A stretch of 64,000 nt of DNA, taken from Sutcliffiella horikoshii (GTDB lineage: Bacteria > Bacillota > Bacilli > Bacillales > Bacillaceae_I). This document shows, piece by piece, positions 241-61,568 of this stretch. The position numbers and the translations under genes were made by a program. A model generated the notes under the pieces. That model did no database searches and was not told the origin of the DNA. It saw only the letters and a list, made by a program, of their open reading frames with translations. The stretch lies in contig NZ_CP020880.1 in assembly GCF_002157855.1 (NCBI RefSeq), forward strand, positions 1,922,001-1,986,000, given 5' to 3'. Position 1 is the first letter of the stretch, and each line of letters begins with the position of its first letter.

Positions 241-373
241 ACTGTTGATTTCCGTTCCAGGCGCTTCGCTTGCCTGCGGGCGGTCCGTGAGCCTCCTCGG
301 CTGCGCCTGTGGGGTCTCACCTGTCCCTTCCTCTCGCGGGCGTCTGCGCGCCTTCCACTCCAATCAACAAGGT
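241..373 (-). repeat. Intergenic structured repeat, copy 1 (reverse)
   Basis: This is a GC-rich element of about 130 bp, present nine times in the window; here it lies in reverse orientation. Its ends form an inverted repeat, ACTGTTGATT against AATCAACAAGGT. An inner helix pairs AGGCGC (259-264) with GCGCCT (348-353). On the minus strand it carries GTGAG ... CTCAC around a GAGGAGG-containing loop. It is closest to copy 8 and, like copy 8, is followed by a forward copy a short distance away. No ORF in it is convincing. Confidence 0.9.
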
Positions 374-431
374 GACCTCATTCATTAAAGGGTTTATGAA
401 AAGCCATCTAATATGGTTTACGTAATTTTCA

Positions 432-558
432 GCTGTGGATTGGAGCAAATGGCGGAGACTCCAGCGGGGGAGTAACGGTTGGTTGAGACCCCGCAACGAA
501 GTGAGGAGGCTCAAGCACCGTCCCGCGGAAAGCGAAGCCATTTGCGGAAAGGAACAGC
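432..558 (+). repeat. Intergenic structured repeat, copy 2 (forward)
   Basis: Forward copy of the same family, 58 bases after copy 1. The ends GCTGT (432-436) and ACAGC (554-558) pair. A perfect 9-bp inner helix is formed by GCAAATGGC (445-453) and GCCATTTGC (537-545). Further in, GCGGG/CCCGC and ACGGT/ACCGT pair, then TTGAG/CTCAA closes a loop with GAGGAGG. It is nearly identical to copy 9, so copies 1+2 and 8+9 look like one compound unit. Confidence 0.9.
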
Positions 559-663
559 GGCGTATAAGTTATTAGTAATTTTTCTATCCTAAAATAGCAA
601 TAGGTCTTTATGCCTATGGAGGAAAATGAGTCAAATTGACGATTTTTTTTAACAATTGACACA

Positions 664-692
664 TAGACATATCGGTTACCTTAATTTACAAT
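664..692 (+). promoter_or_regulatory. Candidate sigma-A promoter of the fla/che operon
   Basis: TAGACA (664-669), a 17-base spacer and TACAAT (687-692) fit sigma-A with one mismatch in each box. Transcription would begin near 699, leaving a leader of about 60 bases before flgB. The rest of 559-761 is AT-rich. It holds ATTGAC repeated at 635-640 and 655-660, which might be a regulator site, but no gene. I found no good sigma-D promoter here, although B. subtilis has one for this operon. Confidence 0.5.
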
Positions 693-761
693 AAAAACAT
701 ACATACATATTTCGACAAAAATATATAATTCGTAACAAAAGATATATTTATGGGGGTACTA

Positions 762-1151
762 ATGAAGATTTTTTCGACATCAATCCAAGCATTGGAAAAA
801 GGTATACAGTATTCGGGTGCAAAACATAAAGCTATTTCACATAATATCGCAAACGTTGATACACCCAACTTTAAACGAAAAGAAATAAAACCGAACTTTG
901 GTGAAACTTACCAAAGAGCACTTGAAGCAAATAAAACAGATGACAGACATAGAGAATTTTCCGGAAGTTCAAATAAAGCGTTTAAAATGGATAACACATC
1001 TTATTCCTACTCACATAATGGCAATAATGTCGACATAGATAAAGAAATGTCAGATTTGGCTGAAAATCAAATATATTATTACACATTAATTGATCAAATG
1101 AGCGGGAAGTTCCAATCCCTTCAAAACGTAATTAAAGGAGGGAGAGGATAA
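762..1151 (+). CDS. flgB: Flagellar basal-body rod protein FlgB
   Basis: FlgB is a proximal rod subunit exported by the flagellar type III apparatus. The protein has 129 residues. The N-terminal rod-family motif SHNIANVDTPNFKRKEI is visible near residue 25, and helical ends suited to rod packing flank it. The start is the ATG at 762, six bases after GGGGG; an earlier in-frame ATG at 750 would contain that Shine-Dalgarno sequence, and FlgB proteins normally begin MK(I/L)FS. It is the first gene of the long fla/che operon, and its TAA overlaps the flgC ATG by one base. Confidence 0.97.
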   Translation: MKIFSTSIQALEKGIQYSGAKHKAISHNIANVDTPNFKRKEIKPNFGETYQRALEANKTDDRHREFSGSSNKAFKMDNTSYSYSHNGNNVDIDKEMSDLAENQIYYYTLIDQMSGKFQSLQNVIKGGRG

Positions 1152-1603
1152 TGTCCATGTTTAAAAGTATGAACATCTCGAGCTCCGCTCTTACCGCACA
1201 GAGGCTCAGAATGGATGTTATATCATCAAATATGGCAAACGTCGACTCAACCCGCGGGGAATACCGTAACGGGCAGTGGGAACCGTACAGAAGGAAGCTG
1301 GTAGAAACCGCACCGAAGGAAAACAGTTTCCAATCCTATTTACAAAAAGCCTCTGGAAATGGAAGTGGTTTTGGAAGTGGAGTGAAGGTAACTAGAATTA
1401 AAGAAGATGATGCTCCTTTCCGTGTAATGTTCGACCCAGAGCACCCGGACGCAAATGAAGACGGATATGTTGAACTGCCCAATGTCGATCCTTTAAAAGA
1501 AATGGTCGACCTTATGAGTGCATCAAGGTCCTATGAGGCGAATGTGACGGTATTTAATGCTTCAAAAGGTATTATGATGAAAACGTTGGAGCTTGGTAAA
1601 TAA
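1151..1603 (+). CDS. flgC: Flagellar basal-body rod protein FlgC
   Basis: FlgC is the second proximal rod subunit. Its 150 residues fit the family. The N-terminal motif NISSSALTAQRLRMDVISSNMANVDSTR and the C-terminal SASRSYEANVTVFNASK segment are the conserved rod-protein ends that pair into a coiled coil, here paraphrased by their key blocks. The start overlaps the flgB stop (TAATG), implying coupled translation. Assembly needs FlgB and FliE from the same transcript. Confidence 0.97.
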   Translation: MSMFKSMNISSSALTAQRLRMDVISSNMANVDSTRGEYRNGQWEPYRRKLVETAPKENSFQSYLQKASGNGSGFGSGVKVTRIKEDDAPFRVMFDPEHPDANEDGYVELPNVDPLKEMVDLMSASRSYEANVTVFNASKGIMMKTLELGK

Positions 1604-1618
1604 GTGGAGGTCATATAG

Positions 1619-1915
1619 ATGATTACTAAAATAGCTAATTCTAATCAAATGGTTCAGAATCTAAATAGTGTTCAGAAAACGAGTGGGGATGTGCATCAAC
1701 AGTTTTCTACCTATTTAAAAGATGCTTTAAATGAAGTGAACAATGCACAAGTTGCTTCCAATCAAATTACTACAAAGCTAGTTAATAATGAGGGAGTAGA
1801 GCTTCATGACGTGCTGATTGCTCAGCAAAAAGCAAGTGTAGCCATGTCGCTTACGATGGAAGTAAGAAACAAAGGCGTGGAAGCATATCAGGAAATTATG
1901 AGAATGCAAGTGTAG
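1619..1915 (+). CDS. fliE: Flagellar hook-basal body protein FliE
   Basis: FliE (98 residues) forms the adaptor between the MS ring/export gate and the rod. The C-terminal segment with VLIAQQKASVAMSLT, followed by EVRNKGVEAYQEIMRMQV, is the family signature. The start has GTGGAGG eight bases upstream. It lies 15 bases after flgC. A 148-bp gap with a hairpin separates it from fliF, the widest gap in the early part of the operon. Confidence 0.97.
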   Translation: MITKIANSNQMVQNLNSVQKTSGDVHQQFSTYLKDALNEVNNAQVASNQITTKLVNNEGVELHDVLIAQQKASVAMSLTMEVRNKGVEAYQEIMRMQV

Positions 1916-2009
1916 CCTAAAGGATATGGCTAAGTAACTCCGCTCAACCTTGATACATAAATAATTTTTGTCACCCAAGCGTGACTGTGATCTTACAGAT
2001 AGAAAAATG

Positions 2010-2049
2010 CGGTTATTTACTGCATAACTTTGCTGCAAGATAATAACCG
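2010..2049 (+). promoter_or_regulatory. Hairpin overlapping the fliF ribosome binding site
   Basis: CGGTTATT (2010-2017) pairs perfectly with AATAACCG (2042-2049). The 3' arm runs into the GGGGGA Shine-Dalgarno sequence of fliF (ATG at 2064). There is no U-tract, so it is not a terminator. If formed, it could mask part of the ribosome binding site or mark an mRNA processing point between fliE and fliF. Confidence 0.45.
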
Positions 2050-2063
2050 GGGGAATTGACGTA

Positions 2064-3653
2064 ATGAAAGAGAGATTACAAGAGATAAAGACAAAAACTT
2101 TTTCCTTTTGGACTAGTAGAACGAAAGCTCAAAAGACAGCAATGCTCAGTACAGTTATCGTATCCATTTTTGCAATAGCTGCGATGGTGTACTTCCTGAA
2201 TAAGACGGACATGGCTCCTCTATATAAAGATTTGACCGTGCAGGAAACAGGTCAAATTAAGGAAGTGTTAGATGGAAGAGGCATCCAATCGCAGATTACA
2301 AATAACGGTACCGCTATTTTGGTACCTCAACAATCAGTAGATTCATTGAAAGTGGAATTGGCTGCTGAGGGCCTTCCGAAAAGCGGTAGCATTGATTATG
2401 GTTTTTTTGGAGAAAGATCAGGGTTTGGAATGACAGATAATGAATTCCGAATAATGAAATTGGATGCCATGCAAACAGAACTTGCGAATTTGGTTAAAAG
2501 TATTGAAGGTGTGAAAGAAGCACAGGTCATGCTTAGTCTCCCTGAAGAAGGGGTGTTTGTAAGAGAGTCAACACAAGAGGCTTCAGCCTCCATCGTCATA
2601 GAAAACGATCCTGGGTATCAATTTGACCAGAATCATGTTAATGCGCTTTATCATCTTGTTTCAAAGAGTATTCCTAACTTAGCTACAGATAATATCGTCA
2701 TCATGAACCAAAATTTTGAGTATTTTGATTTAAATAATAACCAGAGTTCCGGTAACACCTTTAATGCGTCCACGCAATTGGAGCTAAAGAAGGAAATTGA
2801 AAGAGACATCCAAAGGCAAGTACAGCAGATGTTAGGAATGATGATGGGTTACAACAAAGTAGTAGTTTCCGTAACCACTGACATTGATTTCACGCAGGAA
2901 GCAAGAGAAGAGAATAGGGTAACACCAGTTGATCCAGAAAACATGGAAGGAATTGCAGTAAGCGTTGAACGAATTACGGAGAGTTATACAGGTAGTGAAG
3001 ACACTGCTGGTGGGGTTCCTGGAACTGGAGAAGCAGATATCCCTGCATATGTAGCCGGAGGAGGATCCGGCAGTGGCGATTATGAAAAAATGGAAGAAAG
3101 AATCAATAATGAAGTGAATCGAATCAGATCTGAAATTGTAGAAAGCCCTTATAAAGTTAGAGATTTGGGCATCCAAGTTATGGTTGAACCTCCTGTCGCT
3201 GATGACCCATTATCCATGCAGGAAAATACGATAAATGATATTAGACAAATACTAAGTACAATTGTCCGAACAACCATTGATAAAAATATGTTAGGGGAAG
3301 ACCCTGAACTAGCTAACATTGATGAGAAAATTGTTGTTTCCGTTCAAGAGTTCAATGGAAAAGTAGAAATGGAAGAATCAACTGAATCTACAATTCCAAC
3401 ATGGGTATATATCGCTGCTGGAATTCTCTTAGCTGTCATCCTCTTGTTATTGTTCCTACTATTCAAACGAAGTAGTAAAGAGGAAGAGGAAGAAATAATG
3501 GTTACAGAAGAGGAAACTGTTCCATTCCAAGTGCCGGATATAAACAATGAAAAAGAGTCAGAAAGTTCAGCGCGCCGAAAACAACTAGAAAAAATGGCCA
3601 AAGAAAAGCCGGACGAATTTGCGAAACTTTTACGTTCGTGGTTGTCGGAATAG
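2064..3653 (+). CDS. fliF: Flagellar MS-ring protein FliF
   Basis: FliF builds the membrane-embedded MS ring that anchors rod, export gate and C-ring. It has 529 residues, close to the usual 530-560. A transmembrane helix lies at about 25-46 (TVIVSIFAIAAMVYFL) and a second at about 446-467 (YIAAGILLAVILLLLFLLF). The ring-building motifs lie between, including KLDAMQTELANLVKSIEGV and the region after YNKVVVSVTTDIDF. The acidic C-terminal tail, ending EKPDEFAKLLRSWLSE, is the FliG-binding segment. It is followed 18 bases later by fliG. Confidence 0.97.
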   Translation: MKERLQEIKTKTFSFWTSRTKAQKTAMLSTVIVSIFAIAAMVYFLNKTDMAPLYKDLTVQETGQIKEVLDGRGIQSQITNNGTAILVPQQSVDSLKVELAAEGLPKSGSIDYGFFGERSGFGMTDNEFRIMKLDAMQTELANLVKSIEGVKEAQVMLSLPEEGVFVRESTQEASASIVIENDPGYQFDQNHVNALYHLVSKSIPNLATDNIVIMNQNFEYFDLNNNQSSGNTFNASTQLELKKEIERDIQRQVQQMLGMMMGYNKVVVSVTTDIDFTQEAREENRVTPVDPENMEGIAVSVERITESYTGSEDTAGGVPGTGEADIPAYVAGGGSGSGDYEKMEERINNEVNRIRSEIVESPYKVRDLGIQVMVEPPVADDPLSMQENTINDIRQILSTIVRTTIDKNMLGEDPELANIDEKIVVSVQEFNGKVEMEESTESTIPTWVYIAAGILLAVILLLLFLLFKRSSKEEEEEIMVTEEETVPFQVPDINNEKESESSARRKQLEKMAKEKPDEFAKLLRSWLSE

Positions 3654-3671
3654 AAGGGAAGGGAGACGAAT

Positions 3672-4691
3672 ATGGCAAAAGCAACGCAGGCAAAAGCCTT
3701 TTCAAATAAGCAAAAGGCAGCCATCTTATTGATCTCGCTTGGTCCGGATGTTTCGGCTTCCGTTTACAAGCACTTATCAGAAGAAGAAATCGAGAAATTA
3801 ACACTTGAAATCAGCGGTGTGCGTACAGTCGATTCTCATATTAAAGAGGATGTTCTGGAAGAGTTTCACCAAATCGCCCTTGCTCAAGATTATATATCTC
3901 AAGGAGGAATTGGTTACGCCAAAACAGTTTTAGAGAAAGCCTTGGGGAAAGACCAGGCTACAGCCATCATCACAAGGCTTACCTCTTCTTTGCAAGTTAA
4001 GCCCTTTGACTTTGCAAGAAAAGCGGATGCTTCTCAAATCCTTAATTTTATACAAAACGAACACCCACAAACGATTGCACTTGTCTTATCTTACTTGGAA
4101 CCGACAAAGTCCGGTCAAATATTATCAGAGTTACCGCAAGAATTGCAGGCGGATATTGCAAAAAGGATTGCAGTCATGGACAGTACCTCACCTGAGATTA
4201 TTAATGAGGTAGAGCAAATCCTTGAACGAAAGCTTTCTACTACCGTTACTCGGGATTATACAAACACTGGCGGAATTGACTCTGTCGTAGAAGTGTTAAA
4301 TCAGGTAGACAGAAGTACAGAAAGAACCATCCTTGACTCCTTGGAAATTCAAGACCCTGAATTGGCAGAAGAAATCAAGAAACGCATGTTTGTATTCGAA
4401 GACATTGTTACGCTTGATAACATGGCCATTCAGCGAGTAATTCGTGACGTTGAAAATGAAGATATGATGCTTGCACTGAAGGTTGCAAGTGAAGAGGTCA
4501 AAGAGATTGTATTTAAGAATATGTCTAAACGAATGGTAGAAACCATGAAAGACGATATGGAATACATGGGTCCTGTTCGCTTGAAGGATGTTGAAGAGTC
4601 TCAATCTCGTATCGTAGGAATCATTAGAAAGCTTGAAGAAGCAGGGGAGATCGTCATTGCTCGTGGCGGAGGAGATGACATCATTGTCTAA
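3672..4691 (+). CDS. fliG: Flagellar motor switch protein FliG
   Basis: FliG (339 residues) is the C-ring component that meets the MotAB stators and sets rotation direction. The N-terminal armadillo-like part binds FliF. The middle domain shows the hallmark EHPQT within NEHPQTIALVLSYL. The C-terminal torque domain has the charged helix around RVIRDVENEDMMLALK. The start has GGGAGA upstream. Its end overlaps the likely fliH start, as expected for tightly linked switch and export genes. Confidence 0.97.
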   Translation: MAKATQAKAFSNKQKAAILLISLGPDVSASVYKHLSEEEIEKLTLEISGVRTVDSHIKEDVLEEFHQIALAQDYISQGGIGYAKTVLEKALGKDQATAIITRLTSSLQVKPFDFARKADASQILNFIQNEHPQTIALVLSYLEPTKSGQILSELPQELQADIAKRIAVMDSTSPEIINEVEQILERKLSTTVTRDYTNTGGIDSVVEVLNQVDRSTERTILDSLEIQDPELAEEIKKRMFVFEDIVTLDNMAIQRVIRDVENEDMMLALKVASEEVKEIVFKNMSKRMVETMKDDMEYMGPVRLKDVEESQSRIVGIIRKLEEAGEIVIARGGGDDIIV

Positions 4692-5454
4692 GTTAATAAA
4701 ATCTTTTTCTCTTAAAGAAGGAAATTCTCAATCTGTTGCTATAAAAGTTGCTCCGATTTTCAACAAGAAACAAACGGATGCAAATACAGAAACAGTACTT
4801 GGTCATAGTATAGAATCTATTAATCATGCCATAGAAAAGGCAAATCGTGAGGCTGCCGATATTTTGGAACAGGCATCCTTGGAACGACAAACTGCTGCAA
4901 AGAAGATTGAAGAGGACAAGAAAGCATGGGAGTCAGAGAAAGAATCTTGGATGCAAAAAGCATATGATAAAGGCCATGATCAAGGTTATCAAGCAGGGGA
5001 AAAAGAGGCACAAGCACTATATGAAGAGAAGCTTAACGAGGCAAATCAAATAATTGAACTTGCCCAATTGCATTATAATGAAAAACTTGACAGCTCATTG
5101 GAGTCCATCGTCAAGCTTGGTGTAAAAGTGGCTGAAAAGATTATTGGGTCTTCCTTGGATTCAGATCCTTCCACTTTTACGCAGTTGGTTCAAGCAGCCC
5201 TTAAAGAAGTAAAAGAAAAAGAGGATGTAAAAATTTATGTATGTCCTAAACAATACCCAACTCTTATGATGAATAAACAGATTTTGCAAAATATCATCAA
5301 TAGCCAATTTGAACTTATTATCTATCCTGACTCAGAGTTGAAAGAAAACGGTTGCTGGATTGATTCTACTGCAGGAAGAATGGATGTATCTATTGATACT
5401 CAGTTGAAGGAAATTAAAGAACATCTTTTACAACTTGTAAGAGCGGAGTTGTAA
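4675..5454 (+). CDS. fliH: Flagellar export regulator FliH
   Basis: FliH is the stator-like regulator that dimerises and holds the export ATPase FliI at the C-ring. From the chosen ATG it has 259 residues. There is a long charged, Ala/Glu-rich coiled coil at about 45-130, then the conserved C-terminal domain with VKLGVKVAEKIIG and a Cys-containing IYVCPKQYP block. The start is uncertain: ATG 4675 gives MTSLSKLIK, and TTG 4684 has a better distance from GGAGG (4668-4672). Both overlap the end of fliG. Confidence 0.88.
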   Translation: MTSLSKLIKSFSLKEGNSQSVAIKVAPIFNKKQTDANTETVLGHSIESINHAIEKANREAADILEQASLERQTAAKKIEEDKKAWESEKESWMQKAYDKGHDQGYQAGEKEAQALYEEKLNEANQIIELAQLHYNEKLDSSLESIVKLGVKVAEKIIGSSLDSDPSTFTQLVQAALKEVKEKEDVKIYVCPKQYPTLMMNKQILQNIINSQFELIIYPDSELKENGCWIDSTAGRMDVSIDTQLKEIKEHLLQLVRAEL

Positions 5455-5456
5455 CC

Positions 5457-6770
5457 ATGTTGACAATTGAGGAGTTACTGCAAGAAATAGACACGATGAA
5501 TTCGTACAGGCGCTATGGAAAAGTAAAAAGAGTTATCGGTCTTATGATTGAGTCCAAGGGGCCAGAGAGCTCCATTGGGGATGTATGCAATATCATCATC
5601 CATAAAAAGAAAAAAAGAATTGTACAAGCGGAGGTCGTCGGCTTCAGAGATGACCACGTTATTTTAATGCCATTTACTGATATCCAGGATATTGGACCTG
5701 GATGTATGGTGGAGGCGACAAATAACCCTTTGGAAATTAGAATCGGTGAAGAGTTGAGGGGAAAGGTACTTGATGCACTGGGAAAACCTCTAAATCAAGA
5801 GGAGGAATTACCAGTCGGTTTAGGTAAATACCCTACAGACCAAGCACCCCCAAACCCAATGACGCGACCATCAATTACAGAAGAATTGGAAGTGGGAGTA
5901 AAAGTCATTGACGGCCTGCTTACAGTAGGCAAAGGGCAGAGGGTCGGGATTTTTGCTGGTAGTGGAGTTGGAAAAAGTACACTTCTTGGGATGATTGCAC
6001 GAAATACTCATGCAGATATTAATGTGATAGCACTTATTGGGGAACGAGGCAGAGAAGTTCGAGACTTTTTGGAACGTGACCTTGGTCCTGAAGGGTTAAG
6101 TCGTTCCATCGTTATCGTGGCTACATCCGATCAACCCGCACTTATGCGGATAAAAGGGGCATATACGGCAACGGCCATCTCAGAGTATTTCCGAGATATG
6201 GGCTATAATGTCATGCTCATGATGGATTCAGTGACAAGGGTGGCAATGGCGCAAAGAGAGGTTGGTTTGGCAGTGGGAGAACCGCCGACCACCAAAGGTT
6301 ATACACCCAGCGTATTTTCCATGCTTCCTAAATTGTTGGAAAGAACCGGCACAAACCAACACGGGTCCATCACGGCCTTCTACACAGTGCTGGTGGATGG
6401 GGATGACATGAATGAGCCCATAGCTGATACAGTTCGCGGGATACTTGACGGTCATTTTGTTTTAGATAGAGATCTTGCAAATAAGGGGCAATACCCGGCA
6501 ATTAACGTGTTAAAAAGTGTGAGTCGGGTTATGAACCATATCGTCGATAATGAACATAAACGTGCAGCGGAATCCATGAGGGAAAAGCTTTCGAAATATT
6601 ACCAAGCTGAAGACCTTATTAATATTGGGGCCTATAAGCGAGGAAGCTCCAGAGAAATCGATGATGCCATTCAATCCTACCCGGCCATCATAAACTATTT
6701 AAAACAAGAAGTGGATGATAGCTGGAAGTTTACTGATACAAAAAAAGAATTAACAAACTTAATGAAGTAG
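5457..6770 (+). CDS. fliI: Flagellum-specific export ATPase FliI
   Basis: FliI is the hexameric ATPase that unloads substrates for the flagellar type III export gate; it is homologous to the F1 beta subunit. It has 437 residues, the normal size. Walker A is GSGVGKST at 168-175, Walker B lies in VMLMMDSVTRVAMAQRE, and the family signature PPTTKGYTPSVF follows. A GCGGAG Shine-Dalgarno sequence precedes the ATG, which is two bases after the fliH stop. FliH, FliI and FliJ form one export subcomplex. Confidence 0.98.
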   Translation: MLTIEELLQEIDTMNSYRRYGKVKRVIGLMIESKGPESSIGDVCNIIIHKKKKRIVQAEVVGFRDDHVILMPFTDIQDIGPGCMVEATNNPLEIRIGEELRGKVLDALGKPLNQEEELPVGLGKYPTDQAPPNPMTRPSITEELEVGVKVIDGLLTVGKGQRVGIFAGSGVGKSTLLGMIARNTHADINVIALIGERGREVRDFLERDLGPEGLSRSIVIVATSDQPALMRIKGAYTATAISEYFRDMGYNVMLMMDSVTRVAMAQREVGLAVGEPPTTKGYTPSVFSMLPKLLERTGTNQHGSITAFYTVLVDGDDMNEPIADTVRGILDGHFVLDRDLANKGQYPAINVLKSVSRVMNHIVDNEHKRAAESMREKLSKYYQAEDLINIGAYKRGSSREIDDAIQSYPAIINYLKQEVDDSWKFTDTKKELTNLMK

Positions 6771-6779
6771 GTGGTAGGC

Positions 6780-7229: not shown

Positions 7230-7236
7230 ATAAAAA

Positions 7237-7809: not shown

Positions 7810-7832
7810 GTTTTTAGAAAGGAATGAAAGAA

Positions 7833-25234: not shown

Positions 25235-25242
25235 AGACCCTA

Positions 25243-25426
25243 GCTGTTGATTGGAGCAAAAGGCGAAGACTCCTCGAAAATGCTACGCATTTTCTTCGTG
25301 CGATGTTTCGCTGCCGTAGCCTTCCTTGTCCTGAGGGAGATAGCGCTAGGTGGAGACCCCGCAGGCTTGCCGAGGAGGCTCTCGTCAGCCCCTAGGAAAG
25401 CGAAGCCATTTGCGGAAATCAACAGC
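25243..25426 (+). repeat. Intergenic structured repeat, copy 3 (extended), between cheA and cheW
   Basis: Forward copy, longest of the family at 184 bp. The ends form a perfect 10-bp inverted repeat, GCTGTTGATT (25243-25252) and AATCAACAGC (25417-25426). About 55 extra bases near the 5' side include a perfect hairpin, GAAAATGC (25276-25283) against GCATTTTC (25287-25294). It lies eight bases after the cheA stop, inside the operon, and has no U-tract, so read-through into cheW is expected. Confidence 0.88.
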
Positions 25427-25473
25427 AGTATCAAACGATACCATTTATTAAATATGAACAGGAGGTAACATTT

Positions 25474-30310: not shown

Positions 30311-30348
30311 GAAAGGATAGGCTTGAATGAAATATCTCAAACCTATTT

Positions 30349-30478
30349 CCCTGTTGACTGAAGTGCAAGGTGTGAGACTCCGAAGGGAGGTAGCGGTAGG
30401 TTGAGACCCCGCAACGAAGTGAGGAGGCTCAAGCACCGCCCCTCGGAAAGCGAACACCTGGTACGGAAGGAAAAAGGA
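30349..30478 (+). repeat. Intergenic structured repeat, copy 4, before pyrH
   Basis: Forward copy. AGGTGT (30368-30373) pairs with ACACCT (30454-30459), GCGGT with ACCGC, and TTGAG with CTCAA. The 3' end is degenerate, so the outer helix (CCCTGTT at the 5' end) is incomplete. It lies between the tsf terminator and pyrH. An open frame through it gives a false N-terminal extension of PyrH containing [13 protein letters not shown]. Confidence 0.88.
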
Positions 30479-30517
30479 GTAAACGAAATCTCAACCCTTT
30501 TATTAATGGAGGTTACT

Positions 30518-36030: not shown

Positions 36031-36035
36031 CAACT

Positions 36036-36166
36036 CCCTGATGACTTCCGTTCCAGGTGTTCGCTTTCCGCGGGACGGTGCTTGAGCCTCCTCACTTCGT
36101 TGCGGGGTCTCAACCTACCGTTACTCCCCCGCAGGAGTCTCACACCTTGCACTTCAGTCATCAGGG
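36036..36166 (-). repeat. Intergenic structured repeat, copy 5 (reverse), before proS
   Basis: Reverse copy starting five bases after the rasP terminator. The ends are a perfect 11-bp inverted repeat, CCCTGATGACT (36036-36046) and AGTCATCAGGG (36156-36166). The next helix is AGGTGT (36055-36060) with ACACCT (36142-36147). The proS start lies 50 bases beyond. Confidence 0.9.
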
Positions 36167-36195
36167 TAAAATTGCAATTTACATAAATTTTATAG

Positions 36196-42339: not shown

Positions 42340-42372
42340 TTTTCATGCGAATTGACTGGCTTATTCAATCCA

Positions 42373-42502
42373 CCCTGTTGACTGAAGTGGAAGATGTGAG
42401 ACTCCGGCGGGAGGTAGCGGTAGGTCGAGACCCTGCAACGAAGTGAGGAGGCTCGATCATCGCCCCGCGGAAAGCGAACATCTGGAACGAAAGGAAACAG
42501 GG
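42373..42502 (+). repeat. Intergenic structured repeat, copy 6, after polC
   Basis: Forward copy. Ends CCCTGTT (42373-42379) and AACAGGG (42496-42502) pair. AGATGT (42392-42397) pairs with ACATCT (42478-42483), and TCGAG (42425-42429) with CTCGA (42452-42456). These last two helices carry different bases from other copies yet stay paired. It lies 33 bases after polC and upstream of the rimP promoter. Confidence 0.92.
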
Positions 42503-42548
42503 AGTTGAAAGCTGAGGTGCCGCAAACCCCTGAAAACACTAGAAAGAT

Positions 42549-47960: not shown

Positions 47961-47961
47961 G

Positions 47962-47991: not shown

Positions 47992-48014
47992 ACAAGTAAT
48001 GGGATACATGTTTC

Positions 48015-48146
48015 CTCTGGAGATTGGAATGCAAGGTATGAGACTTCAGCGGGGGAGTAACGGTAGGTTGAGACCCCTGAAGCGTTGGGAGGAGGCTCAA
48101 GCACCGTCCCGCGGAAAGCGAATACCTGGAACGTAAGTCTACAGAG
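48015..48146 (+). repeat. Intergenic structured repeat, copy 7, in the truB leader
   Basis: Forward copy. Ends CTCTG (48015-48019) and CAGAG (48142-48146) pair, unlike the ends of other copies. AGGTAT (48034-48039) pairs with ATACCT (48122-48127), and TTGAG with CTCAA. It lies downstream of a strong promoter and so is very likely transcribed. Confidence 0.92.
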
Positions 48147-48185
48147 TGTTAACGCGAACATAATTTTATGAAAGGAGTGGCCTAA

Positions 48186-52884: not shown

Positions 52885-52890
52885 GATAGG

Positions 52891-52916: not shown

Positions 52917-52986
52917 GCAGTACCTCCCCATGAACATTTATTTAATGGGGGTTGGTATCTAACAAGCTTTATTTGTTCTACCTTGT

Positions 52987-53022: not shown

Positions 53023-53027
53023 GTGGA

Positions 53028-53993: not shown

Positions 53994-54023
53994 ATTTGGC
54001 AAACTTGAATAGGAGGATTATCG

Positions 54024-55268
54024 TTGCTTACTAAACATACATGTTCAAACGGAGTAAGAATTGTATTAGAAAATATTCCACATGTCCGATCGGTTGCGAT
54101 TGGCGTATGGATTGGAACAGGTTCACGAAATGAAGACAATGTAAACAATGGAGTATCTCATTTCCTTGAGCATATGTTCTTCAAAGGAACAGAAACAAAA
54201 AATGCACGTGAAATTGCCGAGGCTTTCGATTCTATCGGAGGGCAGGTAAATGCATTTACTTCAAAGGAATACACTTGTTATTATGCAAAAGTGATGGATG
54301 AACACTCTTCCTATGCACTTGGAGTGTTAGCTGATATGTTTTTCCATTCCATCTTTGATGAAGAAGAATTGAAGAAGGAAAAGAATGTTGTGTACGAGGA
54401 AATCAAAATGTATGAAGATGCACCAGATGATATCGTTCATGACGTTTTGGCAAGAGCTTCCTACGGTAACCATCCTTTAGGTTATCCGATACTTGGAACA
54501 GAAGAAACTTTATCTGCTTTTAACGGAAATACGTTGCGTGATTATATGAAAGAAACCTATACACCTGACAATGTCGTGATCTCCGTAGCTGGTAATATTG
54601 ATGAGTCATTTGTGAAAGAGATTGAAAATCTATTTGGAAGTTATGAAACTGGGCACTCAAAGCGTGAGTATGTAAAACCTAGCTTTGAAACCGGAAGAAT
54701 TGCCAAAAAGAAAACTACCGAACAGGCTCATCTCTGCATTGGTTACGACGGGCTTCAAATTGGTGATAAAGATATTTACAACCTGATTGTGTTGAACAAT
54801 GTGCTTGGCGGCAGCATGAGCAGTCGTCTATTCCAAGATGTCAGAGAAGAACGCGGACTTGCGTATTCTGTCTATTCCTATCACTCCACCTTCCAAGACA
54901 ATGGTATGCTAACCATTTATGGTGGAACTGGCAGCAACCAATTAGATCTTCTGTTTGAAACCATTCAACAGACGCTTAACACACTGAAGCGTGACGGAAT
55001 AACTAAAAAAGAGCTTGTCAACAGTAAGGAGCAAATAAAAGGTAGCCTTATGTTGAGTCTTGAGAGCACAAACAGTCGTATGAGCAGAAACGGAAAGAAC
55101 GAACTTCTTCTCGGAAGACATCGCTCCCTAGATGATATCTTAGAAAGAATCAATAGTATCACAGAGGAATCTGTCAATAACTTGGCAACCAAGATTTTCA
55201 CAGATGAATATTCTGTTGCTTTGATCAGCCCTAGCGGTGAGATGCCTAAATCAATTCAAGAAAAATAA
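54024..55268 (+). CDS. mlpA: M16-family processing protease MlpA (YmxG)
   Basis: MlpA (414 residues) is related to mitochondrial processing peptidase. The inverted zinc motif HFLEH is at 46-50, with the distal Glu in EEIKMYEDAPDD about 75 residues on. The C-terminal half contains GGSMSSRLFQDVREERGLAYSVYS. The TTG start lies ten bases after AGGAGG. Its physiological substrate is not established. A strong terminator follows. Confidence 0.95.
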   Translation: MLTKHTCSNGVRIVLENIPHVRSVAIGVWIGTGSRNEDNVNNGVSHFLEHMFFKGTETKNAREIAEAFDSIGGQVNAFTSKEYTCYYAKVMDEHSSYALGVLADMFFHSIFDEEELKKEKNVVYEEIKMYEDAPDDIVHDVLARASYGNHPLGYPILGTEETLSAFNGNTLRDYMKETYTPDNVVISVAGNIDESFVKEIENLFGSYETGHSKREYVKPSFETGRIAKKKTTEQAHLCIGYDGLQIGDKDIYNLIVLNNVLGGSMSSRLFQDVREERGLAYSVYSYHSTFQDNGMLTIYGGTGSNQLDLLFETIQQTLNTLKRDGITKKELVNSKEQIKGSLMLSLESTNSRMSRNGKNELLLGRHRSLDDILERINSITEESVNNLATKIFTDEYSVALISPSGEMPKSIQEK

Positions 55269-55272
55269 GAAG

Positions 55273-55306
55273 AAACCTGCCATTTTTCATTGGCAGGTTT
55301 TTTTTT
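55273..55306 (+). terminator. Intrinsic terminator of mlpA
   Basis: AAACCTGCCA pairs perfectly with TGGCAGGTTT over an eight-base T-rich loop, followed by T residues. Confidence 0.95.
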
Positions 55307-55347
55307 GGACGCCTTCTAATATAGATAGTATAGGAGGTGTTTTTTAT

Positions 55348-55593
55348 ATGAGGTTAAGTGAAATGAGCGGAAAGGAAATTGTCGATGTGAAACGTGCAGA
55401 ACGGTTAGGGATACTTGGTCATACGGATCTTGAGATCAACGAAAATACTGGTGAGATACGTTCGCTCATCATTCCTTCGTTGAAATGGTTCGGGTTGAAG
55501 AAGGAAGGCAGTGACATTCGTGTGCCGTGGAATCATATTAAAAAGATTGGAACAGATATGATTATTATAGATATACCGGAAGAGGAAGAATGA
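55348..55593 (+). CDS. ymxH: PRC-barrel sporulation protein YmxH (YlmC family)
   Basis: This 81-residue YlmC/YmxH-type PRC-barrel protein opens MRLSEMSGKEIVDVKRAERL and has the barrel strands LEINENTGEIRSLIIPS and IRVPWNHIKKIGTDMIII. Its function is unknown; it travels with the dipicolinate synthase genes. The start is ATG 55348 after AGGAGG; an in-frame upstream start would cross the mlpA terminator and is rejected. Confidence 0.93.
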   Translation: MRLSEMSGKEIVDVKRAERLGILGHTDLEINENTGEIRSLIIPSLKWFGLKKEGSDIRVPWNHIKKIGTDMIIIDIPEEEE

Positions 55594-55595
55594 CT

Positions 55596-55623
55596 GACTT
55601 GGCGCGAGCTAGGTCTTTTTTTG
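55596..55623 (+). terminator. Intrinsic terminator of ymxH
   Basis: GACTTGGC pairs with GCTAGGTC (two G-U pairs) over a GCGA tetraloop, followed by seven T. Confidence 0.85.
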
Positions 55624-55630
55624 TTTGGAG

Positions 55631-55984
55631 CGCTCTATACGCCCGAACGGAAGGAATCCCGAGGTCTTCGGTAGTATAGAAGCGTTCTATACGCCCGAAC
55701 AGAAGGAAACCCGAGGTCTCTGGTAGTATAGAAGCGCTCTATACGCCCGCACGGTAGAAATCACAAGTTCTTCGGTAGTATAGAAGCGCTCTATACACCC
55801 GAACGGAAGGAATTCCGAGGTCTTCGATAGTATAGAAGCCTTCTATAAGCCCGAACAGAAGGAATCACACAGTCTTCGGTAGTATAGAAGCGTTCTATAC
55901 GCCCGCAAGGAAGGAATAACACAGACTTCGGTAGTATAGAAGCCTTCTATATGCCCGAAAGAAAGAAATCACCACGTCTTCGGG
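55631..55984 (+). repeat. Tandem array of seven 52-bp palindromic units
   Basis: Six full units and one partial unit begin at 55631, 55683, 55735, 55787, 55839, 55891 and 55943, with no insertion or deletion between them. Each reads roughly CG(C/T)TCTATACGCCCGAA, 16-18 variable bases, then TTCGGTAGTATAGAAG. The two conserved parts are near-complementary, so each unit is an imperfect hairpin, and adjacent units share a palindrome such as TATAGAAGCGTTCTATA. The unit is not a multiple of three and has no persistent ORF. The bases 55985-56160 after it hold no gene. Confidence 0.95.
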
Positions 55985-56075
55985 CAGAAAGCTCAGAAAG
56001 ACTCAATCAAAATATTTACAAAATACTAAATAACACTCCCCTTGCAAACTCTTCCCTTTCTCCCTGGATTCAAGC

Positions 56076-56103
56076 ACAGATTTTCTCTAGCTTACATAAG
56101 ATG
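56076..56103 (+). promoter_or_regulatory. Candidate sigma-K promoter of spoVFAB
   Basis: AC (56076-56077), a 17-base spacer and CATAAGATG (56095-56103) fit the sigma-K pattern AC-N16/17-CATANNNTA with one mismatch at the last base. Dipicolinate synthase is a sigma-K gene in the B. subtilis mother cell, which supports the call. The leader would be about 55 bases. Confidence 0.5.
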
Positions 56104-56168
56104 TGGAAGTAAGAAAAACTTGAGCCAGATTTACAAACTTTCACGAAGTAGAAGAAGGTGAACGATAT

Positions 56169-57065
56169 ATGCTGACCGGTTTGCACATAGCTGTCATTGG
56201 CGGTGATGCAAGGCAGCTGGAAGTGATACGTAAGCTTATTGAGCTGGACGCGAAGCTTTCGCTTGTAGGATTTGACCAACTAGATCACGGCTTTACAGGT
56301 GCTTCAAAGGAGCAAATGAATGAAGTGGATTTCACGACTGTCCATGCCATTATCCTTCCTGTTCCCGGCACAAATTTAGAGGGGCAGGTTGATACAATCT
56401 TCTCTAATGAAAAAATTGTGCTGACAGAGGAACTAGTCAAGAACACACCAGAGCACTGTACCATTTATTCCGGTATTACGAATCCTTATTTGAATCAATT
56501 GGTGGCAAGTACAAACAGGAAATTGGTTCAATTGTTTGATCGTGATGATGTTGCCATTTATAACGCAATCCCGACAGTGGAAGGTACCATTATGATGGTG
56601 ATTCAACATACAGATATTACGATTCATAACTCCAAAGTGGCAGTGTTGGGATTAGGAAGAGTCGGTATGAGTGTAGCGCGTACTTTTGCCGCACTAGGTG
56701 CTAATGTACGTGTAGGTGCGAGAAAATCCGAACATATTGCCCGTATCTTTGAGATGGGCGTTACACCATTTCATCTAAATGATTTGGCTGCGAATGTTAC
56801 AGATGTAGATGTGTGTATTAATACTATTCCACATCCTATCGTAACATCGGATGTAATCTCCAAAATGCCTGCTCACACTCTCATCATTGATCTGGCATCA
56901 AAACCAGGGGGAACTGATTTTCGATATGCCGAAAAAAGAGGAATTAAAGCATTATTAGCTCCAGGACTTCCAGGAATTGTTGCTCCGAAAACTGCGGGGC
57001 AGATCGTGGCGAATGTCTTGTCACAATTACTTAAAGAAGAAATGGAAGGGAGAAAGGGGAATTAA
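56169..57065 (+). CDS. spoVFA: Dipicolinate synthase subunit A
   Basis: SpoVFA (DpaA) with SpoVFB oxidises dihydrodipicolinate to dipicolinate, the calcium chelator of the spore core. The 298-residue protein opens MLTGLHIAVIGGDARQLEVI and has a second Rossmann motif, VAVLGLGRVGMSVARTFAALG, for the nucleotide. LLAPGLPGIVAPKTAGQI is conserved near the end. AGAAGGTGA precedes the ATG. spoVFB follows after two bases. Confidence 0.97.
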   Translation: MLTGLHIAVIGGDARQLEVIRKLIELDAKLSLVGFDQLDHGFTGASKEQMNEVDFTTVHAIILPVPGTNLEGQVDTIFSNEKIVLTEELVKNTPEHCTIYSGITNPYLNQLVASTNRKLVQLFDRDDVAIYNAIPTVEGTIMMVIQHTDITIHNSKVAVLGLGRVGMSVARTFAALGANVRVGARKSEHIARIFEMGVTPFHLNDLAANVTDVDVCINTIPHPIVTSDVISKMPAHTLIIDLASKPGGTDFRYAEKRGIKALLAPGLPGIVAPKTAGQIVANVLSQLLKEEMEGRKGN

Positions 57066-57067
57066 CC

Positions 57068-57667
57068 ATGCAATTAAAAGGTAAACGGCTAGGTTTTGGT
57101 TTAACGGGATCTCATTGTACGTATGATGCAGTTATACCGGAGATACAAAAGCTACTTGATGCTGGTGCAGAAGTGAGGCCAGTAGTTACTTCGACCGTTC
57201 AACATACAAATACCAGATTTGGTCAAGGCGAAGATTGGATAAAACTGATTGAAGATATGACAGGATTTAAAGTAATAGATTCCATTGTAAAAGCAGAGCC
57301 GCTTGGACCGAAAATTCCATTGGATTGTATGATCATTGCCCCTTTAACTGGGAATTCAATGAGTAAATTAGCCAATGCACTTACAGATTCACCTGTACTA
57401 ATGGCTGCAAAGGCAACACTAAGGAATCATAACCCGGTTGTTTTAGGGATATCAACAAATGATGCCCTTGGATTAAATGGATTAAATTTAATGAGATTAA
57501 TGGCTACCAAAAATATATACTTTATTCCTTATGGGCAAGATGCACCAGATAAAAAACCAAATTCCATGGTTGCAAGAATGAGTATGCTCATGCCTACAGT
57601 GGAGCATGCATTAGAGCATAAGCAAATACAACCAGTCATCGTGGAAAGATATAAAGACGATTTATAA
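57068..57667 (+). CDS. spoVFB: Dipicolinate synthase subunit B
   Basis: SpoVFB (DpaB, 199 residues) is the flavoprotein-like partner of SpoVFA. The LGFGLTGSHCTYDAVIPEIQ segment and MIIAPLTGNSMSKLANALTDSPVLMAAKA resemble the Dfp/UbiX flavoprotein fold. AAGGGGA lies upstream. A long hairpin terminator follows, so the pair is a separate unit from asd. Confidence 0.97.
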   Translation: MQLKGKRLGFGLTGSHCTYDAVIPEIQKLLDAGAEVRPVVTSTVQHTNTRFGQGEDWIKLIEDMTGFKVIDSIVKAEPLGPKIPLDCMIIAPLTGNSMSKLANALTDSPVLMAAKATLRNHNPVVLGISTNDALGLNGLNLMRLMATKNIYFIPYGQDAPDKKPNSMVARMSMLMPTVEHALEHKQIQPVIVERYKDDL

Positions 57668-57679
57668 TAAAATTTGCTT

Positions 57680-57722
57680 AGAAGAGAAGAAAAGTAAGAA
57701 TTTCTTCTCTTCTTTATTTCAG
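57680..57722 (+). terminator. Intrinsic terminator of spoVFAB
   Basis: AGAAGAGAAGAAA (57680-57692) pairs perfectly with TTTCTTCTCTTCT (57701-57713), followed by TTATTT. The stem is AT-rich but 13 bp long. Confidence 0.88.
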
Positions 57723-57817
57723 TAATATGATAAAATAAAAAACTATATATGAATATTTATTCTGAAAGCTCAGATAAACATTAAGAGCTATTTTTAAAAT
57801 GGAGAGGTGCTTAATAG

Positions 57818-58861
57818 ATGAGTGGTTTACATGTAGCAGTAGTAGGCGCAACAGGAGCAGTAGGGCAGCAGATGCTTCATACATTAGAAGAAAGAAATTT
57901 CCCTATCAAGAAGCTTACGCTATTATCTTCGGAGCGCTCTGCAGGTAAAAAAGTATTATTCAAAGGGGAAGAAGTGACAATTGAAGTGGCAACACCTGAT
58001 AAATTTGAGGGTGTTCATATAGCATTGTTCAGTGCAGGTGGAAGTGTTTCCAAGGAGCTTGCGCCTGAAGCGGCAAAGCGGGGAGCAATTGTGGTTGATA
58101 ATACTAGCTACTTCCGTATGGATCCTAATGTGCCGTTGGTCGTACCAGAAGTAAATGAGGAAGACATCAAATCCCATAATGGCATCATTGCAAACCCGAA
58201 TTGCTCGACGATTCAAATGGTAGTTGCATTAGAGCCGATTCGTAAATCATATGGTCTTACTAAGGTCATAGTCAGCACATATCAAGCTGTATCAGGAGCA
58301 GGTGCGGCGGCAATTGATGAGCTTGAGTCCCAATCACAGGCAATCTTAAACAAAGAAGCTTTCACACCAAGCATTCTACCTGTTAAAGGTGATAAAAAGC
58401 ATTATCAAATTGCATTTAATGCCATTCCACAGATTGATAAGTTTGAAGAAAACGGTTTTACGTTTGAAGAATTAAAAATGATTAATGAAACAAAAAAAAT
58501 CATGCATGACCAAAACTTACAGGTTGCTGCGACATGTGTACGCCTTCCGGTTGTAACAGGACATTCCGAGTCTGTATATATTGAAGTAGAAGACGAAAAT
58601 GTGACTGTTCAAGATATGAAAGCGTTGCTTGAAAAAGCTCCTGGCGTTGTACTGCAAGACAATCCGGCAGAACAGGTTTACCCGATGCCTGCTGATTGTG
58701 TGGGCTCTAACGATGTGTTTGTCGGTAGAATCAGGAAGGACTTGGATAACAAAAAAGGGTTCCATTTATGGATTGTTTCCGACAACTTGCTAAAAGGTGC
58801 AGCCTGGAATTCCGTACAAATTGCTGAGAGCTTAGTGAAACTTGGTGTCATCAACCGATAA
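57818..58861 (+). CDS. asd: Aspartate-semialdehyde dehydrogenase
   Basis: Asd reduces aspartyl phosphate to the semialdehyde, the branch point to lysine, DAP, dipicolinate, threonine and methionine. It has 347 residues. [16 protein letters not shown] binds NADP; the catalytic Cys is C129 in [21 protein letters not shown] holds the catalytic His. GGAGAGGTG precedes the ATG. A promoter is not obvious upstream beyond AT-rich sequence (57723-57770). Confidence 0.98.
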
Positions 58862-58870
58862 AAAGATAGA

Positions 58871-58900
58871 GAAAAGGTCTTTGTAAGACCTTTTCTTTTC
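58871..58900 (+). terminator. Intrinsic terminator after asd
   Basis: GAAAAGGTCTT pairs perfectly with AAGACCTTTTC over a short TGT loop, followed by TTTTC. Confidence 0.88.
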
Positions 58901-59025
58901 GGAACAAAGTCGGGTTTCATTCCAATGCCATTCTTGAACAGGGAGTCCCATTCACAGGGTACTATTTTCATCACATCTTTCGTATGTATTAAGGATGTTT
59001 CTAAACCGCGATGAGGTGTCAATAT

Positions 59026-60297
59026 ATGAAAATTATAGTTCAAAAGTTTGGTGGAACGTCTGTAAGGGATGAAACCAGTAGACATGCTGCAGTCAAACAT
59101 ATAAAGAAAGCCGTGAATGATGGATACAAAGTAGTTGTTGTCGTATCCGCCATGGGAAGAAAAGGGGAGCCCTACGCAACAGACACCCTTTTGAACCTTG
59201 TGGAAAAAGGAAAGAACAACGTGTCTAGGCGCGAAATAGATATGCTTTTATCCTGTGGGGAAATTATCTCTTCCATTGTTTTCAGTAGCCTGTTGCAAAA
59301 AGAAGGAATTTCCGCAACAGCATTGAATGGTCCACAGGCCGGATTTCGAACCAATAATGACCACACAAATGCGCGTATCATTGAAATGAAATGTGAAAGA
59401 CTTCTTGAAATGCTAGAATTGCATCAAGTGGTGGTTGTAGCAGGATTTCAAGGCGAAACGAAGAACGGAGATATTTCTACCATTGGGCGTGGAGGAAGTG
59501 ATACTTCAGCTGCCGCATTAGGTGCAGCCCTTCAGGCAGAATGGATTGATATTTTTACAGATGTGGAAGGGGTCATGACCGCAGATCCGCGTATCGTCAA
59601 AGATGCTTCTCCATTGCCTGTTGTCACCTATAACGAAATATGTAACATGGCATATCAGGGCGCGAAAGTAATCCATCCGCGGGCCGTGGAAATTGCGATG
59701 CAAGCAAAGATTCCAATTCGTATCAGGTCGACGTATTCTAACTCAACTGGGACATTAGTCACCTCCCTTGATAGAATGGGTAAAGGTGCTGATGTGAAGG
59801 ACCGCTTGATAACAGGGATAGCCCATGTACCGAATGTCACGCAAATAAAGGTATTTGCAAAAGAAGGAAATTATGGTATCCAAACAGAAGTCTTTCGAGC
59901 AATGGCAAATGAACAGATAAGCGTAGACTTTTTCAATATCTCCCCTACTAGTGTCGTCTATACCGTCACAGATGAGATGAGTGAAAAAGCGATAAATGTA
60001 TTGCGAAAGTTGGGTTATGAGCCGAAAGTTAACCGCCACTGTGCAAAAGTTGCCACAGTTGGAGCAGGAATGACAGGCGTCCCAGGCGTAACATCAAAAA
60101 TAGTGACGGCACTTTCAGAATTAGGCATACAGATTCTTCAATCCGCAGATAGTCACACTACAATCTGGGTACTTGTAAAACAGGAAGATATGATTAAAGC
60201 GGTGAATGCTTTACACAAGGCTTTCAATCTTGCAAAAAAACAAATAACGATCATACACCCAACCGCAGAAGAAGGAGAGAAAACAGTTCATGATTAA
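59026..60297 (+). CDS. dapG: Aspartokinase I (DAP-sensitive) DapG
   Basis: DapG phosphorylates aspartate; the Bacillus isozyme is feedback-inhibited by meso-diaminopimelate. KFGGTSVRD and GRGGSDTSAAALGAAL are the kinase motifs, and two ACT domains occupy about 265-405. The 423-residue protein has about 19 more C-terminal residues than I recall for B. subtilis. The start is ATG 59026, eight bases after GAGGTG. It overlaps dapA by eight bases. Confidence 0.96.
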   Translation: MKIIVQKFGGTSVRDETSRHAAVKHIKKAVNDGYKVVVVVSAMGRKGEPYATDTLLNLVEKGKNNVSRREIDMLLSCGEIISSIVFSSLLQKEGISATALNGPQAGFRTNNDHTNARIIEMKCERLLEMLELHQVVVVAGFQGETKNGDISTIGRGGSDTSAAALGAALQAEWIDIFTDVEGVMTADPRIVKDASPLPVVTYNEICNMAYQGAKVIHPRAVEIAMQAKIPIRIRSTYSNSTGTLVTSLDRMGKGADVKDRLITGIAHVPNVTQIKVFAKEGNYGIQTEVFRAMANEQISVDFFNISPTSVVYTVTDEMSEKAINVLRKLGYEPKVNRHCAKVATVGAGMTGVPGVTSKIVTALSELGIQILQSADSHTTIWVLVKQEDMIKAVNALHKAFNLAKKQITIIHPTAEEGEKTVHD

Positions 60298-61162
60298 CTT
60301 TGGTAAAGTATCAACAGCTATGGTAACCCCTTTTGATAATAAAGGAAACATAGATTTTGAAAAAACAACACAATTGATTAACTATTTGATTAAAAACGGG
60401 ACGGATTCCGTTGTTGTTGCCGGTACAACAGGAGAATCTCCTACACTATCAACAGAAGAAAAGCTTGCCCTTTTCTCCCATGTAGTAAAGATTGTCGATG
60501 GTAGAATTCCCGTAATAGCAGGAACAGGAAGCAATAATACCCGAGCATCTATTGACCTGACGAAAAAGGCGGAGGCTGCAGGTGTTGACGCCATCATGCT
60601 AGTGGCACCATATTACAGTAAGCCTAGTCAAGAGGGGCTTTATCAGCACTTCAGTACAATCGCATCTGAAACTACCCTGCCTGTCATGCTATACAATATT
60701 CCTGGCAGATCTGTTGTTAACATGTCAGTTGAAACCATTGTGCGCCTTTCTGCTATTGAAAATATCGTTGCAGTCAAGGAAGCAAGCGGTAACCTGGATG
60801 CCATGACGGAAATAATTGCAAATACACCGGATGAATTTGTCCTATACAGTGGGGATGACGGGTTAACCTTGCCGGTTCTTTCTATAGGAGGTAATGGTGT
60901 GGTTTCTGTAGCCTCACATGTTTTAGGGAATCAAATGCAAGAGATGATTCGTTCTTTTGAGACAGGAGAGTTTGCAAGTGCAGCTAAACAGCATCAATCG
61001 TTGCTGCCTATCATGAAGGGACTATTCAGTGCTCCGAGTCCTTCCCCAGTAAAAACAGCCCTGCAATTAAAGGGAATGGATGTCGGCGGTGTCAGACTAC
61101 CGTTGGTGCCGTTAACAGAAGAAGAAAGAAATACGTTAACAAAACTTATAGAAACTGTTTAA
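60290..61162 (+). CDS. dapA: 4-hydroxy-tetrahydrodipicolinate synthase DapA
   Basis: DapA condenses pyruvate with aspartate semialdehyde. Its product feeds lysine, DAP and spore dipicolinate. The 290-residue TIM barrel has GTTGESPTLS at about 46, the Tyr in YNIPGRSVVNM, and the Schiff-base Lys K163 in AVKEASGN. GAAGGAGAG lies upstream within dapG. Coupled translation with dapG is likely. Confidence 0.98.
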   Translation: MINFGKVSTAMVTPFDNKGNIDFEKTTQLINYLIKNGTDSVVVAGTTGESPTLSTEEKLALFSHVVKIVDGRIPVIAGTGSNNTRASIDLTKKAEAAGVDAIMLVAPYYSKPSQEGLYQHFSTIASETTLPVMLYNIPGRSVVNMSVETIVRLSAIENIVAVKEASGNLDAMTEIIANTPDEFVLYSGDDGLTLPVLSIGGNGVVSVASHVLGNQMQEMIRSFETGEFASAAKQHQSLLPIMKGLFSAPSPSPVKTALQLKGMDVGGVRLPLVPLTEEERNTLTKLIETV

Positions 61163-61173
61163 TATACAAAAAG

Positions 61174-61207
61174 AACCAAGGCTTGTTATAAAGCTTTGGT
61201 TTTTTTG
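61174..61207 (+). terminator. Intrinsic terminator of dapG-dapA
   Basis: AACCAAGGCTT (61174-61184) pairs with AAGCTTTGGTT (61191-61201), with one G-U pair, followed by T residues. Confidence 0.93.
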
Positions 61208-61231
61208 ATAGATAAGAAAGAATGTATGAAA

Positions 61232-61363
61232 ACTGATGATTTCCGTTCCAGGCGCTTCGCTTGCCTGCGGGCGGTCCGTGAGCCTCCTCACATCCGTTGC
61301 GGGGTCTCACCTGTCCCTTCCTCCCGCGGGCGTCTGCGCGCCTTCCACTCCAATCTACAAAGT
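61232..61363 (-). repeat. Intergenic structured repeat, copy 8 (reverse)
   Basis: Reverse copy, closest to copy 1. Ends ACTGATGATT and AATCTACAAAGT pair imperfectly; AGGCGC/GCGCCT form the next helix. It follows the dapA terminator by 24 bases and is paired with copy 9. Confidence 0.9.
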
Positions 61364-61440
61364 GATTGCATTTACCTTTGTTAAAAAGACAATCTCTCAG
61401 TTACTAAAGAACTTTTTACATTTCTTTAACATACTTTCTA

Positions 61441-61568
61441 GCTGTGTATTGGAGCAAATGGCGTAGACTCCAGCGGGGGAGTAACGGTTGATTGAGACCC
61501 CTGAAGCGTTGTGAGGAGGCTCAAACACCGTCCCGCGGAAAGCGAAGCCATTTGCGTAAAGGAACAGC
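61441..61568 (+). repeat. Intergenic structured repeat, copy 9 (forward)
   Basis: Forward copy, closest to copy 2, 77 bases after copy 8. Ends GCTGT and ACAGC pair, and GCAAATGGC (61454-61462) pairs perfectly with GCCATTTGC (61547-61555). It precedes the rnjB promoter. Confidence 0.92.

Follow-up and report, generated by a model that had tools for sequence, protein, structure and literature searches.

What are the structured repeats that recur between the genes of Sutcliffiella horikoshii, and what keeps their helices paired? The question is raised by a 64,000-nucleotide stretch of its genome (C1:1922001-1986000 of 4.30 Mb; hereafter the window), in which a sequence-only reading had distinguished nine intergenic elements with co-varying helices and had left three options for their nature: a non-coding RNA, an element resembling a miniature inverted-repeat transposable element (MITE), or a protein-binding palindrome. 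The present analysis favours the second of these, in the form of a MITE or of a REPIN (a doublet of repetitive extragenic palindromes, REPs), and does not require an RNA. This choice rests on empty orthologous sites, on doublets with a conserved spacer, on placement behind terminators and on orientation with replication. The repeats are a real, structured and mobile family of the REPIN/MITE kind, for which we infer a mechanism below.

All nine elements were recovered where the sequence-only reading had placed them, all lie between genes as it had claimed, and they align as one family once the copies at 241, 36036 and 61232 are reversed. Each copy is predicted to fold into an imperfect, rod-like hairpin of ~130 nucleotides (nt), in which helices alternate with conserved internal loops below an apical hairpin; bounded by short inverted repeats, it forms, as in MITEs, a short non-autonomous unit. 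However, the nine are not independent units, because the copies at 241 and 432, and those at 61232 and 61441, form two head-to-head doublets. A covariance model built from the nine window copies and then searched genome-wide gave at least 150 scored matches (the best 150 of 699 candidates), and eight of the nine window copies are among the best 150 matches listed, that at 42373 being absent. Three weak matches of 231 (E over 1e-4) were dropped before the set reached the 239 matches kept, which lie in 105 stretches around the best 150 (788,920 bp). Own-genome statistics rest on these stretches, a non-random sample covering 18% of the genome. A core pattern matches the genome at 248 places, its reversed control at none, and 171 of the 248 fall inside the stretches, so that the whole-genome total is, by extrapolation, about 350 copies.

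The doublet, which is often the inserted unit in this genome, measures ~350 bp and consists of a leader, a reversed P-type hairpin, a spacer of ~75 bp and a forward hairpin. Among neighbouring matches less than 600 bp apart, 71 of 73 pairs are head-to-head ('-+') and two are '--', and the gap is 40-82 bp in 66 of the '-+' pairs. Exactly one P-type partner is held by 55 of 68 two-hit units, and it is this partner that sets the orientation of the doublet; the other 13 two-hit units were dropped, as were 5 of 168 units that lay at stretch edges or contained three matches. Leader, spacer and tail are all conserved in the doublet consensus, the leader, AGAAAGTATA, following a T-run. In this genome, two palindromes are inverted as one unit, which is the arrangement of a REPIN.

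Evidence of mobility comes from a comparison of 30 of these units with G009, a genome 94% identical over 21 kb. At the orthologous sites, 18 are occupied, seven are empty, three carry a 52-bp tandem array and two are uninformative; the seven empty sites correspond to four doublets, two solos and one P solo, and such presence and absence between relatives is again a property of MITEs. At three of the four sites lacking a doublet, the start of the inserted segment falls cleanly on the T-run following a terminator, whilst the fourth aligns poorly. An extra terminator-like hairpin found at the right end of some copies (C1:1727682, 1780077) lies within the segment missing from G009. Target duplication is not evident for doublets in this comparison, in which their ends are blurred by divergence. 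The three array sites in G009 (L236-L255), orthologous to C1:1133310, 1838945 and 1983228 (the last being window 61228), carry this different element behind the terminator, and at one of them the array closes with the right arm of the doublet, TTTGCGGAAAGGAACAGCG; element interiors therefore seem to have been exchanged.

Both window doublets illustrate the placement. The first (219..562, with all four parts named above) comprises the P-type copy 241 (237..376, minus strand) and the forward copy 432 (427..562, plus strand), and is the segment missing at the orthologous G009 site. Its target is an intrinsic-terminator-like hairpin and T-run on the plus strand (170..218; stem GGGTCTGACT/AGTCAGACCC, then TTTTTATT) at the end of a CodY-type gene, identified by an HTH_CodY match, and this terminator is also present in G009, there without a doublet. 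The second (61207..61572, with a tail that may extend further) has the same four parts, with the P-type copy 61232 at 61228..61366 (minus strand) and the forward copy 61441 at 61436..61572 (plus strand), and its target is a terminator-like hairpin with an AT-rich stem and a T-run, read directly after the dapA open reading frame (ORF) at 61174..61206 on the plus strand. An automated terminator scan (loop limit 8 for the first site) listed none at either window doublet. Across the sampled stretches, a same-strand terminator-like hairpin whose T-run ends 4-20 bp upstream accompanies 37 of 55 doublets, compared with 16 of 80 solos, none of 15 P solos and 108 of 410 unoccupied gene-end windows. Doublets directly follow intrinsic terminators on their 3' side and share their strand.

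The doublets are also strongly oriented. With the direction of replication inferred from the strand switch of matches near 2.1 Mb, there being no mapped origin or terminus, 54 of the 55 orientable doublets point with replication, compared with 125 of 164 unoccupied gene-end terminators (binomial p 6e-6); 600 of 732 genes run in the same sense. Terminators with a doublet behind them are co-oriented in 31 cases and head-on in none, against 125 and 39 for unoccupied ones (Fisher p 9e-4). Counted by strand, 121 of the best 150 copies run with replication, as do 9 of 15 P solos.

That the folded form itself is kept, as had been argued from paired changes on both arms, is supported by covariation beyond that due to relatedness, though not in every test. 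The helix variants on which that argument stood are confirmed: AGGCGC/GCGCCT in copies 241 and 61232, ATGGC/GCCAT in 432 and 61441, AGGTGT/ACACCT in 30349 and 36036, AGATGT/ACATCT in 42373 and AGGTAT/ATACCT in 48015; RNAalifold places 34 pairs in the nine copies, and in 14 of them each side has changed at least once. The wider covariation set contained 220 sequences, after removal from the 239 of 15 outside 120-150 bp and then of 4 that were identical. On a tree of the 142 non-P copies, 74 double changes fall on the same branch (59 of them Watson-Crick to Watson-Crick), compared with a random-branch null mean of 18 and maximum of 30, and sliding one partner leaves 16-27 (0-3 Watson-Crick). The 78 P copies show 30 (26 Watson-Crick), where the null mean is 4.2 and the maximum 12, and 2-11 (0-5 Watson-Crick) when the partner is slid. 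In 24 orthologous pairs, those below 84% identity or with fewer than 120 aligned bases being left out, 13 double changes were counted (11 Watson-Crick), against 2.0 expected under independence. Inversion of a palindrome, which the sequence-only reading had named as another source of paired changes, does occur, in 2 of the 24 comparisons; the 22 uninverted ones hold 11 of the 13 double changes. By contrast, a stricter test resembling R-scape (a G statistic with average product correction, G+APC, and a tree null) picked out no significant pair among the 142 non-P copies or among the 78 P copies. We think that deep clades may make the tree null of this test permissive. The event-based test was designed after the G+APC test had failed, and both must therefore be weighed: the same-branch and orthologue counts speak for maintenance of the fold, the G+APC result against it.

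We favour the explanation that each copy is a component of a small, non-autonomous REPIN-like element, the hairpins of which are read as folded single-stranded DNA (ssDNA) in transposition, a proposal that we hold to be about evenly poised between right and wrong. A transposase acting in trans would recognise the hairpins as folded ssDNA, probably on a single strand of the replication fork, in the manner of REPINs and the ends of IS200/IS605 elements. The need for recognition would keep both helices and internal loops, recombination between copies would swap apical cassettes, and the solos would be partly doublet remnants and partly passengers of an IS1182-family insertion sequence (IS). Tentatively, and at less than even odds, this explanation may be extended to a terminator-targeting, replication-strand-specific element of head-to-head hairpins that insert as folded ssDNA, its enzyme encoded elsewhere, the copies of which double as self-renewing landing pads for an IS1182-family transposon with such a hairpin inside it. 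A plain palindrome bound by protein as double-stranded DNA, the third of the original options, leaves both the conservation of internal loops and the doublets unexplained. Besides the G+APC outcome, several observations weigh against the REPIN-like explanation. Solos are at background orientation (61 of 80 with replication), and selection against head-on insertions could be an alternative source of the 54/55 bias among doublets. In two other genera (at least 52 and at least 54 matches; best 150 of 273 and 339 candidates) no pair closer than 555 bp was seen on inspection by eye, and the doublet may therefore be special to this genus. Moreover, no enzyme is linked to the repeats, RAYT-type Y1 proteins (REP-associated tyrosine transposases), reverse transcriptases (RTs) and IS1182 transposases remaining candidates of which none is proven. 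No repeat was detected at E<=1 near 20 Y1 genes (loci of ~3.3 kb, ~1.5 kb each side), a GT[AG]G REP foot at most 14 nt from the 5' end is found in only 58 of 220 copies, and genomes without a RAYT can be rich in matches, for example G142 with at least 54, although the repeats may outlive the enzyme.

These last points bear most directly on a classical REPIN, in which the genome's own RAYT would move the doublets, a doubtful but serious alternative. A candidate enzyme is at hand: a Y1_Tnp match occurs in 16 of 16 genus genomes and is intact in 15 (that of G011 being a short fragment with a stop), and the single RAYT-type Y1 gene here (L001:1273-1965) scores 77.8 bits with NF047646, for which the cutoff is 80. 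That model, chosen over PF01797, which mixes IS200 and RAYT proteins, was used for a screen of 150 genomes drawn across the order, where it matched 102 at E<=1e-3 and 92 at E<=1e-14, the latter being taken as positive. In raw order-wide counts, at least 20 repeats are present in 43 of the 92 positive genomes but in only 5 of the 58 negative ones; once stratified by family, in a test that left out nine genomes (six of the genus and three without a family label), the association is not significant (p 0.33, 0.62, 0.056). With no linkage to the repeats and the raw association lost on stratification, the RAYT was rejected as a required mobiliser. Like REPINs and bacterial interspersed mosaic elements with their RAYT (TnpA-REP), the family has intergenic head-to-head palindrome doublets in many copies, a proposed ssDNA structure and a possible coupling to the lagging strand, features given in extracts of PMC3116915 and PMC6006769. 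It differs in its hairpins of ~130 nt, where an extract of PMC6006769 gives 21-65 nt, in its insertion behind terminators, in the absence of a linked RAYT and of the GT[AG]G foot from most copies, and in its distinct P and forward partners. From MITEs it may differ in that no parent transposase with matching ends was found and that doublets have no evident target duplication.

An RNA-level function, with the hairpins acting in 3' untranslated RNA or as small RNAs (a stabiliser or an attenuator) and RNA folding keeping the helices, would suit the gene context, in that 146 of the best 150 copies (of 699 candidates; own ORF caller) are intergenic, lying between tandem genes in 104 cases, convergent genes in 36 and divergent genes in only 6, with 86 of the 104 tandem copies oriented with the genes. 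Single-side changes also lean towards G-T over A-C, 124 to 79. Nevertheless, G-T pairs are rare (155 of 8,553 paired cells, beside 8,003 Watson-Crick, 94 A-C and 301 other), and a preference this mild would suit folded DNA no less than folded RNA. Transcription should end before it reaches the doublets, which lie behind terminators, the two inverted orthologues again speak against such a role, and none of the 4227 families of Rfam 15 reaches its gathering score over the window, the database search that the sequence-only reading had proposed; in a permissive scan of positions 200-620, tsr24 (18 bits; gathering 50) and Flavivirus_DB (13.4 bits; gathering 41.5) remained below threshold. We consider an RNA-level function improbable.

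It is likewise unlikely that there is no selection on the fold and that paired changes stem from templated correction of palindromes together with gene conversion between copies. Apical cassettes, both arms included, do vary as blocks between orthologues (units 52, 65 and 70), and inter-copy recombination therefore also shapes the family; whole-copy inversion, noted above in 2 of 24 comparisons, fits the same account. Under such a process, however, mismatched internal loops should have been erased, whereas they are conserved, and isolated double changes occur in near-identical orthologues (units 53 and 57, the orthologue count including only 57).

That an IS1182-type transposase moves the repeats, which would then be hairpin MITEs of a hairpin-targeting IS, is quite improbable, despite an intimate association between the two. 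Five 1,864-bp copies of an IS1182-family element (L091:2960-4823, L090:6137-8000, L095:3287-5150, L121:5183-7046 and L128:1315-3178) encode the same 484-amino-acid transposase (NF033551, E 4.5e-107 for the one tested), are flanked by direct repeats of 8-9 bp and each hold one repeat copy near one end. Those at L090 and L091 each interrupt a repeat copy at its apical loop, and the flanks of the other three are loop-like. Four short derivatives (215-221 bp) have IS ends with a repeat inside, three of them with 8-9 bp direct repeats. In extracts of PMC4923244, the related IS1272 targets hairpins, terminators included, without target duplication, and IS elements within REPs are reported in a portion of PMC1525189; the present element is alike in its hairpin targets but lands in the repeat's apical loop with direct repeats. 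Yet doublet ends bear no resemblance to IS1182 ends, which occur on both sides at only 3 of 163 units, and a Priestia IS match begins at base 234, past the repeat, which therefore looks like a passenger of the IS1182 element.

Retro-insertion by a group IIC-like RT is very improbable: group IIC introns also insert behind intrinsic terminators, according to an extract of PMC4424553, as 37 of the 55 doublets do, and RT genes occur in 10 of 16 genus genomes, with five matches here (C1:346914, 3245402, 565948, 3259945 and 3848762; open frames of 442 and 621 amino acids), but the other six genus genomes lack an RT match, four of them with at least 150 repeats, on which ground an RT was rejected as a required mobiliser, no linked RT being needed, and the permissive Rfam scan of window 200-620 contained no group II intron family.

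The remaining five window copies are solos. Copy 25243 (25238..25430, plus strand), between CheA-type and CheW-type ORFs, starts 8 bp past the former and is a longer form, in which an additional arm of ~57 nt interrupts one hairpin strand; seven own-genome matches longer than 170 bp, this one among them, make up an extra-arm subfamily. Copy 30349 (30345..30481, plus strand) lies in the tsf/pyrH gap and overlaps the pyrH ORF only at an over-extended start, the pyrH family match beginning at residue 46. Copy 36036 (36033..36170, minus strand) lies between the gene for an rseP-family protease and proS, copy 42373 (42369..42505, plus strand) in the polC/rimP gap and copy 48015 (48011..48149, plus strand) in the rbfA/truB gap; the G009 counterparts of 36036 and 48015 are inverted. 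Among eight close relatives (L137-L144), the rseP-proS site is occupied in all, with both orientations seen, the tsf-pyrH site in seven and the polC-rimP site in six. Separately, a tandem array of a 52-bp unit with dyad symmetry (55629-55983, 6.8 copies) follows a YlmC/YmxH-family ORF in the window.

The family extends well beyond this genome. By ProS, the nearest named relatives are strains of S. horikoshii and Bacillus sp. (95-96% amino acid identity in the best segment, top five). Every one of the 18 family-group genomes has the repeat, with 48 to at least 150 matches each, and it is present in 105 of the 150 genomes drawn across the order, where per-genome counts of 22 mean at least 22. 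Phages gave no family match, and the 13 plasmid records that matched have a query coverage of at most 43%. A literature search, with most subscription journals outside its coverage, found no description of the family or of its arrangement, and the family may already be described in print. Other intergenic structured repeats of the Bacillaceae are bcr1 of the Bacillus cereus group and Bhal-1 of B. halodurans (74 bp, 36 copies), to judge from an extract of PMC2267715; both were compared with the present family by description only, and Bhal-1 could be a relative.

A family carried by 105 of 150 genomes of the order thus stands outside Rfam at gathering score in the window. If the REPIN-like explanation is true, it would mean that Bacillales have REPIN-like spread governed by a new targeting rule, insertion behind terminators, and by an orientation rule pointing to single-stranded replication intermediates. 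It would also provide a testable case of a transposon that both lands in and carries one type of hairpin.

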